A stretch of DNA of 53,855 nt from a virus, in IMG/VR virus record IMGVR_UViG_3300027771_000019, positions 1 to 53,855 of that record. One strand, written 5' to 3'. The position numbers and the translations under genes were made by a program. Under the pieces are notes generated by a model. That model was not told the origin of the DNA. It did no database searches and worked only from the letters and a program-made list of their open reading frames with translations. Below, piece after piece: positions 23,936-32,476 of this stretch (its first letter is position 1; each line of letters opens with the position of its first letter).

Positions 23936-24290
23936 TGTTTTTACTTCCAAAGAACTTACTCACTGACCTCATACCTATAGATGCACTAACAATACCACCA
24001 AGGGCTATCTGGTACCACTGAGGCATAACCTCCAGTGCCTCAAAGCCTCTAGCTACGATATCATTACCCCAATCACCACAAAAGGCTAGGATTAGTGGGA
24101 TAGAGAATAGTAAAGTAATCCACTCATCTTTCCAGCTATTCTCTGTAGCCTTAATAGCAGCGATGTCCCAGTCAATCTCACCAGTAAGCTGCTTCTTCTT
24201 GATCTCAGCTTCGGTTAGTTTGAGTTGAGTCTTACCATCTATGATACTTGTGGCTAGACCCGTGAGACTTCCTATGAGTTGTCCTATCAT
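23928..24290 (-). CDS. Holin of the GTA 3TM family
   Basis: 120 residues. The N-terminus is amphipathic (IGQLIGSLTGLATSIID), then a charged helix (TEAEIKKKQ), SWKDEWITLLFSIPLILAF forms the first clear membrane span, and YQIALGGIVSASIGMRSV the last. This arrangement, with the SWKDE-W turn, matches the GTA_holin_3TM family of alphaproteobacterial gene transfer agents and phages. Forms membrane lesions that release the endolysin. ATGA overlap with the upstream gene. Confidence 0.85.
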   Translation of the reverse strand: MIGQLIGSLTGLATSIIDGKTQLKLTEAEIKKKQLTGEIDWDIAAIKATENSWKDEWITLLFSIPLILAFCGDWGNDIVARGFEALEVMPQWYQIALGGIVSASIGMRSVSKFFGSKNNG

Positions 24291-24493
24291 TTCTTTTCAT
24301 TCCCCAACCACACAGCAAAGCAACCAGTGAGTGCACCCATACAGACTGACACTAGGCCAGACTGTTGGATAGATGGATCAGGTAGGCTCATGAACCAATG
24401 AACTGCTTGATAACTAAGAATAGTAACAGCAAGCATCATGATGCGGGGCATCAGTTGCCACTTAAGTACACGCTCCATGATGATCTCTGGCAT
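24287..24493 (-). CDS. Two-TM holin-like protein
   Basis: 68 residues. Start chosen at ATG 24493 (MPEIIMERVL), one base after the upstream stop. Two membrane spans, MLAVTILSYQAVHWFM and GLVSVCMGALTGCFAVWLG, with a short loop and a charged end (GNEKK). Small size, two spans and position before a holin and an endolysin suggest a second holin or antiholin. Confidence 0.75.
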   Translation of the reverse strand: MPEIIMERVLKWQLMPRIMMLAVTILSYQAVHWFMSLPDPSIQQSGLVSVCMGALTGCFAVWLGNEKK

Positions 24494-24494
24494 A

Positions 24495-24746
24495 TTACTC
24501 CCAATCTCTTTTAAGTTTTGGTTTAAACACGTCTCTAGCAGCAAGATGACCCTCTAGGTACATGGCTCTCTCAATACGGTCTAGAGTATACTTGACGCCT
24601 GTGTCATTATGTATTGCTTCTCGTACATAGAATACATCAGACCTTGGAATGTGTACTCTACGTAGTCTGCTTTCGTCTTCGTCAGCTAGTGCTAGATAAA
24701 ATTCTTCTAGTACATTCTCACTGGTGTACATCTTTGGTTTGGACAT
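24495..24746 (-). CDS. First late gene, small soluble protein
   Basis: 83 residues, charged (ENVLEEFYLALADEDESRL, YTLDRIERAMYLEGHLAA), no membrane segment. It opens the late unit. The -10 hexamer of the promoter ends 5 bases before its ATG, so the mRNA may be leaderless if this start is used; the Met at codon 6 is an alternative. Family not recognised. Confidence 0.75.
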   Translation of the reverse strand: MSKPKMYTSENVLEEFYLALADEDESRLRRVHIPRSDVFYVREAIHNDTGVKYTLDRIERAMYLEGHLAARDVFKPKLKRDWE

Positions 24747-24751
24747 GACTA

Positions 24752-24779
24752 GTTATACCTATTTTGGCCCTGATGTCAA
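24752..24779 (-). promoter_or_regulatory. Late promoter, sigma70-like
   Basis: Minus strand TTGACA (24774-24779), 16 bases, TATAAC (24752-24757), then TAGTCATG. Same form as the capsid promoter and the one at 39328. It faces the lysis-packaging-structural unit. Nearby AT-rich dyads could be operator sites. Confidence 0.75.
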
Positions 24780-24816
24780 GAGGGAACGACAAAATACTTA
24801 AAAAATCTGGGTACAG

Positions 24817-24900
24817 TACTTAAAGTATACTCTAAGTATTATTATTACTTTATATATAAGTATTAATAAAACCTTAAGTAACTCTAAGTTACTTTAAGTA
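24817..24900. repeat. AT-rich dyad TACTTAAAGTA ... TACTTTAAGTA
   Basis: TACTTAAAGTA at 24817-24827 and its reverse complement at 24890-24900 flank an AT-rich spacer with a TTTATATATAAG core. Several related words (CTCTAAGTATT, CCTTAAGTAAC, CTCTAAGTTAC) lie between. The same dyad core and TATATATAA spacer precede the integrase gene (31318-31373). Probably an operator for a phage or host regulator, just upstream of the late promoter. Confidence 0.6.
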
Positions 24901-25036
24901 TTCTTAATTATACCACATAATGTTTAAAAGTCAAGAGTTATCTTTAATAATCTACGATTACTTATTGAATACCTGTTCAATTAATACCTTAAGTGTTCTT
25001 AACGGCGAGGATGGGGTTACACATAGGGTAAAATAC

Positions 25037-25069
25037 CCCCTGAGAGGCTCTGTGTCGCCCTCTAAGGGG
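25037..25069. other. Strong hairpin in control region
   Basis: CCCCT (25037-25041) with AGGGG (25065-25069), then AGAGG (25043-25047) with CCTCT (25059-25063), separated by one mismatch; 11-base loop. No T-run follows on either side, so it is not a standard terminator. Could be part of an origin or a transcript. Confidence 0.6.
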
Positions 25070-25190
25070 TGGTCTAGGAGATTCATGGGGGTCTACCGCC
25101 TGTGGAGCTTAAGGCTTTGTACGGGATGATTTACATTGTGTGTGTGGATTATGTATTATACGTAGAAAAGGGGGGATTATGTATAGACAT

Positions 25191-25232
25191 GGGGTAAAAG
25201 ATGATGTAGTTACCAATTGTATTTTACTCCCC
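25191..25232. other. Hairpin with two-base bulge
   Basis: GGGGTAAAA (25191-25199) pairs with TTTTA (25222-25226) and CCCC (25229-25232) with a CT bulge. Preceded by two copies of GGATTATGTAT. Role unknown. Confidence 0.5.
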
Positions 25233-25502
25233 GCTGGCATTGTGTGTGTACGTATACCCCGGCACCCCCCGTGGCCCATGCCCTACCCCTAGTTGATAGG
25301 TCAATGCTACTTACTTAATGTTATCCCTACACTAATCATGCTAACCTACTGATATCATTACGTTTTATACACAATAGAGGATTATCATGTAGAGAAAAGA
25401 CTAAAGTTTTCCACATGTTTTCAAGGTGTTAGCTTGTTTTGTTAAAGCCATGCATTAATACAACCCAAACCCTTAATGTATCACATGAACACCCTATCCC
25501 CC

Positions 25503-25617
25503 TAAACATTATGTATAAACATTATGAGTAAACATTGTGTGTAAACATTATGCCAATACTTTATCTTTATATATTACGACCTATACTTATCTGATTATAT
25601 TATAGGTAAACATTGTT
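25503..25617. repeat. 13-bp iteron array TAAACATTATG
   Basis: TAAACATTATG at 25503, 25516 and 25542, TAAACATTGTG at 25529, all spaced exactly 13 bp, and a related TAAACATTGTT at 25607, 65 bp (5 x 13) after the last. The surroundings are very AT-rich. Regular repeats in an AT-rich, gene-free region resemble iterons of replication origins or clustered regulator sites. Confidence 0.7.
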
Positions 25618-25716
25618 GATATATCTTATTAGTAATAAATACCTGTAAGTTATTCTTATGATATTTATATGTAATTATTACTGGTAATCTACCCTATTCA
25701 CCACAACCTTAACTTG

Positions 25717-25787
25717 CGAATCACCCTATTGCTACACAACCTAGAATGATTGTAATGACTATCTAAGGTTGCCGAATCACCCTATTG
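25717..25787. repeat. 15-bp direct repeat CGAATCACCCTATTG
   Basis: Perfect copies at 25717-25731 and 25773-25787, 56 bp apart, each preceded by an AACCTT/AAGGTT-type word. A third partial copy (ACCCTATTCACC) starts near 25690. They lie upstream of the structured RNA and may bind an early regulator. Confidence 0.55.
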
Positions 25788-25959
25788 ATTTCTCTTTATA
25801 GTTGTGCTGTACAAGTAATAATTACAAGTAAATGTTTCCATAATAACCTGTTTTTTCGTTAAAACCATACTAATTATAATGATAAATATATCCTTTATAA
25901 TGTAAAACCAACCTTTTAAGACCTATCTGTAGCTCGTTTTATTGTTATTGAGAGTTAAG

Positions 25960-26615
25960 TTTTTTGGATGTCGCTACCCACCTAGGGAAAGCCCCACAAG
26001 ATGAACTACCCCGCCAGTCTGGACCTCTAACCGGATTGAACGGCTCTTAAGCTTTAGAGGATACCTAGTGACGACCTACTAAACGACCTAACGGTTATAA
26101 CTATTTTGGAGATGTTTCGGAGACATCAAACCCCAACAAGTTCTTTAAGCTCGGTTGGAGAGACATAGGTTATAAAGCGGATTTGGAATTGTATTAGTAG
26201 AGGTGATAGGGTTGAGCGTATCGGTTGTACAGCTTGAATTGACAAGCTGGAGAGGTCTTTTGATTGACCGTACAATAATAGCAAGGTCGGCCAATGGTCA
26301 CAGCAATGTGAAACATTCGGAGACATCACTTGCGCCGATAAACAGTAGGCTATAAGCCTGCTAGTCTTGTCTGTTTTGACAATAAAAACACCTTAATCGG
26401 TGGGCTTCAAATGCTCTTGGCAATGTTCTTGCCATAGGAAAAGCGGGAAGATTGACCAGACTGATCATTAAAATGGTGGGTATCGTGGGTCATATAAAAT
26501 TTCCAGTAGGGGTGTTACTCTGCCTAAGCCTAGCCAACTAGGTCTTACCGTATGGTATGGGGCGGAGTGCATCTAAGGGCGTCCTATGGTGGGGCGTCCT
26601 TTATTGCACTCTTAT
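25960..26615 (+). ncRNA. Candidate large structured RNA upstream of early genes
   Basis: Stems visible by eye: CCTCTAA/TTAGAGG (26024-26060); GATGT/ACATC near 26110-26126; a three-way junction closed by TTGTAC 26225-26230 / GTACAA 26270-26275 with inner stems AGCTTG/CAAGCT and GGTC/GACC; TCACA-GCAA-TGTGA with a GNRA loop (26298-26311); an 8-bp stem at 26344-26362; TTGTC/GACAA (26367-26382); TGGCAA/TTGCCA (26418-26434); GAGTGCA/TGCACTC (26565-26611). A possible long-range helix joins 25966-25982 and 26588-26599. No coding potential. Size and style resemble ornate phage RNAs such as GOLLD or ROOL, but I cannot assign a class. Confidence 0.6.
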
Positions 26616-26629
26616 GGAAAGATAAAATC

Positions 26630-27148
26630 ATGGTAAACGTAGTCACAAAAATGTTTAAAGATGCCGAGATTGACGCCCAAATTGTCAAGGTCAATGGTTC
26701 GGCTATGTCGCTGCAACAGAAAATTCACAATGTCGCTGTGTCCATACTCAAGGTATGGCATGACGAAAAGGGTGTTGAGGGTGCGGCTCTAAAAGCTGTC
26801 GCTCGTATCAATGCTTTGCAGGATGCGTCCCCGTATCATACCCGTGCTTTCTCGGTGTGGGTTGGTATGATGTTGCCCCTTGAGTGGGCAGCCGAAAACA
26901 AGGTTTGGTTTGGTGATGTCAATGGTGTGTTGACTGGCAAAATGTTTATTGCCGCCCGTGATCTACCCTTCTGGAAAGCGTCACCTCCACCCCAAGCTCA
27001 ACCTTTTATCATGGCTGATGAATTGCAGCGTATATTGGACAAGGCCGTTAAGCGCGCCGATAACCCCAAGGATGGTGATGTTGTTGATGTCGCTGCGTTC
27101 AAGCACCTGCGTGATGCGATCAAGGTATTCAATGCGGTGGTTGAATAA
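26630..27148 (+). CDS. First early gene, unknown
   Basis: 172 residues from ATG 26630 (GGAAAG 9 bases upstream); a start at 26552 is rejected because it lies within the structured RNA. Helical, soluble: KMFKDAEIDAQIVKVNG, LQQKIHNVAVSILKVWHD, HTRAFSVWVGMMLPLEW. C-terminus VVDVAAFKHLRDAIKVF. No Cys, no known motif. As first early cistron it may act against host functions; no family recognised. Confidence 0.85.
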   Translation: MVNVVTKMFKDAEIDAQIVKVNGSAMSLQQKIHNVAVSILKVWHDEKGVEGAALKAVARINALQDASPYHTRAFSVWVGMMLPLEWAAENKVWFGDVNGVLTGKMFIAARDLPFWKASPPPQAQPFIMADELQRILDKAVKRADNPKDGDVVDVAAFKHLRDAIKVFNAVVE

Positions 27149-27169
27149 TCAAGGTGGTTACTGGATAAG

Positions 27170-27200
27170 CGCCCCATGTGTAAGCGTGGGGTGTTTTCTT
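27170..27200 (+). terminator. Terminator or attenuator 1 after first early gene
   Basis: Ten-pair stem (27170-27179 with 27184-27193, three G-U pairs) capped by a GTAA tetraloop and followed by TTTTCTT. Looks like a rho-independent terminator. Downstream genes lack another clear promoter, so it may attenuate rather than stop. Confidence 0.7.
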
Positions 27201-27221: not shown

Positions 27222-27253
27222 CCCTGCGTATAGCGTGGGGCGTTTCTATTTTT
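27222..27253 (+). terminator. Second hairpin with T-rich tail
   Basis: CCCTGCG (27222-27228) with CGTGGGG (27234-27240), two G-U pairs, followed by CGTTTCTATTTTT. It repeats the AGCGTGGGG-(T/C)-GTTT ending of the first hairpin, as if duplicated. It directly precedes the ribosome-binding site of the next gene. Confidence 0.5.
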
Positions 27254-31373: not shown

Positions 31374-31390
31374 CACTTCAAGAGGTGAAC

Positions 31391-32476
31391 ATGAAGTATA
31401 CACACAAAGTCAAACGAAAAGATGGCGGTACGAGTTACCGTTTTGTACCACCTACTGACGCTGCACTTGCTGGTGTTGCGTCAAGTCAAACCTTTAGGGA
31501 TGGCAGGATAGCAAGGTACGAGGTGCCTAAGCTAGTAGACTTGATTGATAGCTATAGACGTGGTGACATACTGGTTGGAACGTATGGCCCTAGCTCAACG
31601 CTCAGTCAACTGCTGACACAGTACCTCAACACTAAGCACTTTAATTCTTTGTCGTTCAATACACAAAAGAATTATGAGTACAACTTGAAGGCTATGTGTT
31701 TAGGTCATGTGTTTAGTAAGTCTATTGGCGACATATCAATAAACAAATTGAACACCGTGATCTGTACTGAGATGTATGATCAGTGGGAGGAGGACATCAG
31801 CACTGACCATGCCAATCAATACGCTAGGCTATTGTCTGTACTGATCAATCACTTCGTATCACTAGAGTTTATTACTCACAACCCTATGAAGAATGTGACT
31901 AAGCGTAGCCACCAACCACGTTCAGTTATCTGGACTAATGATCAGGTAGAAACATTTCTTAACAAAGCATTCGCCAACTACAAGTGGCGTAACGTAGGGT
32001 TGATTGTTATGCTGGCCTATGAGTGGGGCCAACGACCTGTTGATATTAGAAATCTTAAGTGGCAAGACATAGACTTCATTAGGGAGACAGTGACTATTAC
32101 TCAGACGAAACGTGGTGCTACTGTTGAGCTACCCATAGATGAGGATGTCATGGCTATGATCACAGAACAGGAGAATGACTGGGGTTGGCAAGACTATGTA
32201 GTACCATTTCAGAGAGCCTCAGACAATGCTTATAGGCCCATGACTGGTGGTCAAGTCAGTGGGATAGTCAATGAGATCAAGGAAGCCTGTAGCCTACCTC
32301 CTGAGCTACGTGCTGGTGATCTCAGGAAGACTGCTATAGTACAGATGATCCAAGGTGGGGCCGAAGCTGCACAGGTTATGTCAGTTACCGGACACAAGAA
32401 CATCACGTCCCTCAACCCATACCTCAAACACAATATAGAAACTGCAACTGTTGCAATGAACAGGAGAAAGAAATGA
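31391..32476 (+). CDS. int: Tyrosine recombinase / integrase
   Basis: 361 residues from ATG 31391 (AAGAGG upstream; the GTG at 31385 is less likely). SAM-like core-binding region at about 70-175, catalytic domain from 180. Catalytic residues: R215 (YEWGQRPVDIRNL), K240 (TQTKRG), R312 (AGDLRKTAIV), H335 (VTGHKN), Y344 (NPYLKHN). The usual box II His is Gly309. Suggests site-specific integration or genome resolution. A coiled-coil gene overlaps its end by ATGA. Confidence 0.9.
   Translation: MKYTHKVKRKDGGTSYRFVPPTDAALAGVASSQTFRDGRIARYEVPKLVDLIDSYRRGDILVGTYGPSSTLSQLLTQYLNTKHFNSLSFNTQKNYEYNLKAMCLGHVFSKSIGDISINKLNTVICTEMYDQWEEDISTDHANQYARLLSVLINHFVSLEFITHNPMKNVTKRSHQPRSVIWTNDQVETFLNKAFANYKWRNVGLIVMLAYEWGQRPVDIRNLKWQDIDFIRETVTITQTKRGATVELPIDEDVMAMITEQENDWGWQDYVVPFQRASDNAYRPMTGGQVSGIVNEIKEACSLPPELRAGDLRKTAIVQMIQGGAEAAQVMSVTGHKNITSLNPYLKHNIETATVAMNRRKK

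Follow-up and report, generated by a model that had tools for sequence, protein, structure and literature searches.

What occupies the long stretch of DNA between two oppositely directed sets of genes in a phage genome, and does it work as an RNA? The question is raised by the virus record IMGVR_UViG_3300027771_000019, analysed here as one stretch of 53,855 nucleotides (the window), in which leftward genes reach position 24,746 and rightward genes start at 26,630, leaving about 1.9 kb of non-coding DNA between them. Several proteins of the source phage are close to those of Roseobacter phage CRP-9 (portal 77%, terminase 74% and primase 66% identical), and by this identity it is judged to be an HMO-2011/CRP-9-like phage. 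Phages of the HMO-2011 type are reported to dominate in the ocean and to be widespread there (PMC9038755), and the only mentions of RNA in the CRP-9 genome paper are a tRNA gene and a remark on RNA modification (PMC8528129). Undescribed so far according to Rfam and the open literature, a long and strongly conserved RNA placed where the early transcript begins gives a testable handle on how these phages begin the take-over of their host. With CRP-9 and its Roseobacter host in culture, both the expression and the structure of such an RNA are directly measurable.

The locus and its first gene

The structured RNA (25960..26620, + strand as for all its parts below; about 650 nt, with an approximate 5' end) forms the right end of the gap and stops at the ribosome-binding site of gene 1, the first rightward gene (26630..27148, +). 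This gene encodes a protein of 172 aa (phrog_1448, function not known) that is 72-74% identical in the related loci L003 and L007. Its likely Shine-Dalgarno sequence, GGAAAG (26616..26621, +), lies 8 nt before the ATG at 26630 and is the same in both relatives. An initial reading of the sequence alone had placed the RNA right before the first early gene, which is correct; the right arm is called early from its gene order, replication genes following there. The same reading had denied the stretch any coding potential, and no conserved open reading frame was found: the longest frames measure 67 aa on the - strand and 50 aa on the + strand, and the 26 codons by which gene 1 could be extended upstream in the window are interrupted by in-frame stops in L003 and L007. 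A promoter scan returned sites no more numerous than in shuffled sequence and no convincing promoter for the leader. Further along the early arm, an integrase gene (31385-32476; Pfam Phage_integrase, E 2.5e-21) suggests a possible lysogenic life.

A search with gene 1 retrieved L003/L004 and L007, together with L002/L008, which represent the window sequence itself. The 3' ~140 nt of the RNA are 79-80% identical in L003 and L007, and the middle part is ~70% identical to L003 over 146 nt. DNA similarity searches reached no further: the whole region gave short, chance-like matches alone against 50,697 phage records, and the L125 leader and the L133 junction gave no matches. As search patterns, the central junction described below recovered known members alone, and the conserved hairpin TTGTCTGTTTTGACAAT was discarded, having returned unrelated stretches besides the known relatives.

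A class of phage RNA defined by a three-way junction

The hallmark of the RNA is a three-way junction near its 3' end (26513..26572), in which CUAA is followed by a hairpin with GCCAAC, a small hairpin and AUGG. Its helices are P1 (26517-26524/26561-26568), P2 (26528-26533/26538-26543, loop CCAA) and P3 (26546-26549/26554-26557); the class is recognised by the order CUAA-P2(GCCAAC)-P3-AUGG with covarying P1, P2 and P3, and the window falls within it. A covariance model of 60 positions, R1, was built from six sequences drawn from the CRP-9 motif (seen by eye), a structured text search of 86 loci, most of them from a primase-based scan, and the relatives retrieved through gene 1. These six sequences hold 31 double-change cells against 9.9 obtained by shuffling, with a pair score of 0.904 against 0.277; P2 is partly circular in this set, the text search having required its pairing in added members, and P1 and P3 are not. 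The window, itself one of the six training sequences, matches R1 at 67.1 bits (E 9.4e-17) and contains one copy of the junction.

A second pattern was composed of unpaired letters and fixed closing pairs and named no variable pair, so that it did not select for pairing at those positions. Over 2.9 million viral contigs it matched 87 stretches, the reversed pattern 5. Because it occurs only 7 times, in scattered and unrelated taxa, among 84,980 bacterial and archaeal genomes (counted as pattern matches), the element looks phage-specific. R1 matches 73 of the 79 new loci; the six others lack the junction and represent one or two types of sequence, a single stretch recurring in five of them, and among the pattern loci L120, L137 and L157 repeat training sequences. 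The covariation test proposed in the sequence-only reading gave a very strong result: 56 distinct rows contain 298 double-change cells where shuffling gives 87.2 plus or minus 7.1, with a covariation score of 0.816 against 0.188 for shuffles and at most 0.127 for slid controls. Fitting the alignment to the model favours the model, and kinship inflates the counts, but the excess lies far beyond the controls. G-U pairs are frequent in this alignment, which fixes the + strand. A candidate pseudoknot between CCAA and AUGG is uninformative, both segments being invariant and named in the search pattern. The stretch is almost certainly a structured RNA that has been conserved.

Architecture of the RNA

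The hairpins and the three-way junction announced by the first reading are present in the window, and at least six helices are kept by two-sided changes in L003 and L007: the 5' hairpin, the central junction, the hairpin at 26,344, P1, P3 and PX. The 5' hairpin (26024..26060) pairs CCUCUAA with UUAGAGG, replaced by CCCCUUG/CAAGGGG at the equivalent place in both relatives. A 13-base word, TTCGGAGACATCA, was rightly said to recur: its two copies (26116..26128 and 26316-26328) compare with ~0.003 such repeats expected by chance, and it is absent from L003, L007 and L173. In the central three-way junction (26225..26275), UUGUAC/GUACAA closes two hairpins, AGCUUG-AAUUGA-CAAGCU and GGUC-UUUUGAUU-GACC, with the linker GGAGA. 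Its helices covary in L003, L007 and partly L173, a longer stretch standing in for the first hairpin in L007. L173, a later pattern match with a homologous gene 1, also carries the central hairpin word CTTGAATTGACAAG, the hairpin there containing one non-standard pair. Two hairpins follow: AGUAGGC/GCCUGCU (26344..26362), which reads CAGAUAC/GUAUCUG in L003 and L007, and UUGUC-UGUUUU-GACAA (26367..26382), which is identical in all three loci and hence offers no covariation to test.

Towards gene 1, the closing helix P0 (26500..26620) pairs UUUCCA at 26500-26505 with UGGAAA at 26615-26620 and covers the Shine-Dalgarno-like GGAAAG. It can be extended through 26507-26514/26607-26614, and being invariant in L003 and L007 it is uninformative on its own there. 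The stem PX (26565..26611) joins GAGUGCA at 26565-26571 to UGCACUC at 26605-26611 and shows compensatory changes, with the counterparts GGGUUGUA/UAUGCAACCC in L003 and L007 and UAAUACA/UGUAUUA in L173. It shares four bases, 26565-26568, with P1. The conflict that had been noticed around this stem is thus real and the stem itself supported by covariation, but the competing partners are P1 and the longer closing helix at the ribosome-binding site. Inside PX lies a hairpin, AGGGCGUCCU/GGGGCGUCCU (26576..26600), made partly of G-U pairs, present in L003 and L007 and followed by no T run. The long-range helix initially proposed between 25,966-25,982 and 26,588-26,599 can pair in the window, but no counterpart was seen in L003 or L007, and its 3' bases form the local hairpin at 26,576-26,600 in all three loci; it was rejected as the closing helix.

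Upstream of the junction, members of the class carry differing modules, several unrelated types being joined to the common junction, and RNAalifold applied to all leaders together failed because these domains differ. The largest uniform group shows covariation in seven additional helices (24 pairs, score 0.429 against 0.145), and there the outer helix P0 carries the junction and ends right at the Shine-Dalgarno sequence (0.342 against 0.167). L003 and L007 differ by the replacement of one internal block between flanks that are 93-95% identical. Upstream domains are exchanged between phages. A near-identical word, CATCGAAAGCGACAAG, found at about 255-270 in L125 and in many other members ~370 nt ahead of the junction, is perhaps a transcript start.

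Folding energy

Over its full 681 nt the stretch has a folding energy of -220.4 kcal/mol (z -3.24; none of 20 shuffles does as well), compared with z -2.06 for the antisense strand. It thus folds better than shuffled sequence, the comparison suggested at the outset, with a signal that is uneven along its length. Windows of 200 nt give z -4.4 at 26,450-26,649, -2.6 at 26,250-26,449 and values near 0 over 25,950-26,249: the last ~170 nt are much more stable than their shuffles and the first ~200 nt are not, yet the 5' hairpin located there is kept through compensatory changes. For the 220 nt ahead of gene 1, z is -4.45 in sense and -2.64 in antisense, and -7.0 in L003. The CRP-9 leader reaches just -0.73 despite bearing the junction, from which it follows that folding energy alone is a poor guide; likewise, the upstream modules of other members have an uninformative mean MFE z of -0.6, although their covariation is informative. 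Several relatives that lack the junction (L052, L056, L062, L071, L075, L090, L096 and L102) also have 220-nt leaders with strong folding (z -3.0 to -7.5), unlike CRP-13, CRP-603 and L095. The phage group as a whole may thus tend to carry structured early leaders.

Comparison with known RNAs

The sequence-only reading had likened the RNA to GOLLD or ROOL and had also considered a new class or a giant leader. At gathering score, Rfam 15 (GOLLD, ROOL and OLE included) gave no match in the window, L003, L007, L030, L053, L089 or 13 further loci, and relaxed searches gave weak matches alone, far below cut-offs and none credible. The resemblance is therefore unsupported as kinship, whereas the suggestion of a large folded phage RNA, perhaps of a new class or else a giant leader, proved right. 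GOLLD, ROOL and OLE share with the present RNA their size range, their many junctions, an occasional phage location and a function mostly not known. The phage RNA differs from them in matching no covariance model, in being, probably, a leader joined to a coding gene, and in combining exchangeable upstream domains with a shared 60-nt junction; unlike the free-standing GOLLD and ROOL, it would run on into the ribosome-binding site of gene 1, no terminator lying in between.

A search of the open papers found no account of such an RNA, an unindexed report being possible, and the class is judged new on the basis of Rfam 15 and this literature. The novelty is that of the RNA class, which lies outside the known families, structured phage leaders as such being already known.

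Proposed function

Members of the class keep a similar position before unrelated genes. In 74 of 76 members, a start codon with a Shine-Dalgarno-like site lies 35-161 nt downstream (35-48 nt in 49 of these), and 46 of the 56 testable members sit at a divergent gene junction. The 74 downstream first genes fall into 29 unrelated clusters, so dedicated control of a single gene is improbable, and the better candidates are an element at the service of the early transcript in general and a free RNA. Riboswitches and other cis-regulatory leaders also are structured 5' leaders near a ribosome-binding site with overlapping alternative stems, as in the window group. The present RNA is larger, phage-borne and followed by sequence-unrelated genes, mostly of no known function, so that the ligand logic of riboswitches is missing, and an aptamer set over a family of related genes was rejected.

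We lean towards a long structured 5' leader of the first rightward, early transcript, probably acting in cis, a reading based on sequence comparison. Swappable upstream domains are followed by the near-invariant three-way junction, placed at the base of a long helix; this helix reaches the ribosome-binding site of the first gene, whatever that gene is, or ends beside it. Presumably transcribed as one unit with that gene, the leader would govern ribosome access and the stability of the early messenger in the host. The ribosome-binding site is covered in the window, L003 and L007, though not in every member, the helix stopping just before it in most. In the window group, where part of the site is held within the closing helix, competition between P1 with P0 and PX could render it switchable. 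Compensatory change in both P1 and PX hints at such a switch, though shortened forms of the helices could also coexist. Besides the site being left uncovered in most members, several observations count against a cis leader: its length exceeds the usual need of translation control alone, the 29 unrelated downstream clusters imply no gene-specific regulation, and promoter-like sequences seen by eye between the junction and the next gene in L121 and L146 would fit a separate RNA.

The main rival is an RNA cut from the early transcript and acting in trans, for instance as a decoy for, or an inhibitor of, some host factor or a defence system. It is possible though unlikely: the position at the start of the early arm, the irrelevance of the downstream gene, the block exchange of upstream domains between close relatives (L003/L007) and the unrelated module types on one junction would suit it, but no terminator or processing site was seen, and the narrow distance from junction to start codon would be needless for a free RNA. 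A rather doubtful extension makes the whole a new modular phage RNA class whose constant 3' junction carries interchangeable domains, acting in trans on changing host targets (e.g. defence systems) or in general take-over, made at the start of infection with gene 1 riding along.

The put element of HK022 acts in cis within an early phage operon, whichever gene comes next; put elements measure about 70 nt and consist of two simple stems. The phage RNA shares the leader position and the independence of the following gene; its single copy in the genome and the terminator-like hairpins just after gene 1 (27,167-27,196 and 27,222-27,240) would also suit an element of this kind. Processive antitermination, allowing host RNA polymerase to read through a long early operon, is nevertheless improbable, as the RNA is far larger, shows no structural counterpart of the two stems and has its most conserved part next to the ribosome-binding site. 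More improbable still is a role of the RNA in replication from the divergent junction, as origin or primer. The cumulative GC skew has its minimum at ~26 kb (about 24000-26000), where gene direction changes, and AT-rich repeats and a conserved DNA element adjoin the RNA; the skew, however, follows gene direction too, and the DNA element is also found in CRP-13 and CRP-603, without a match to the RNA model. Chance folding of AT/GC-patterned non-coding DNA, with no functional RNA at all, could appeal to the indifferent energies of the first ~200 nt and of other members' upstream modules, but is hardly credible, contradicted as it is by compensatory changes far beyond all controls and by the pattern excess of 87 to 5.

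Other elements of the intergenic gap

The conserved non-coding element just mentioned occupies 25210-25300 of the window (about TGTCATTNGGTGTATACGTATAC...CACCCCCCGTGGCCCATGCCC) and is found again in the divergent region of most relatives, L080 and L095 among them, which like CRP-13 and CRP-603 have no junction model match; it is possibly a protein-binding, origin or attachment site. Closer to the RNA, positions 25650-25849 fold strongly as inverted repeats on either strand (z -4.95 and -4.42) and hold repeated words near CAACCTTAACTTGCGAATCACCC and GTAATAATTAC, related words being found in L003 and L007 too.
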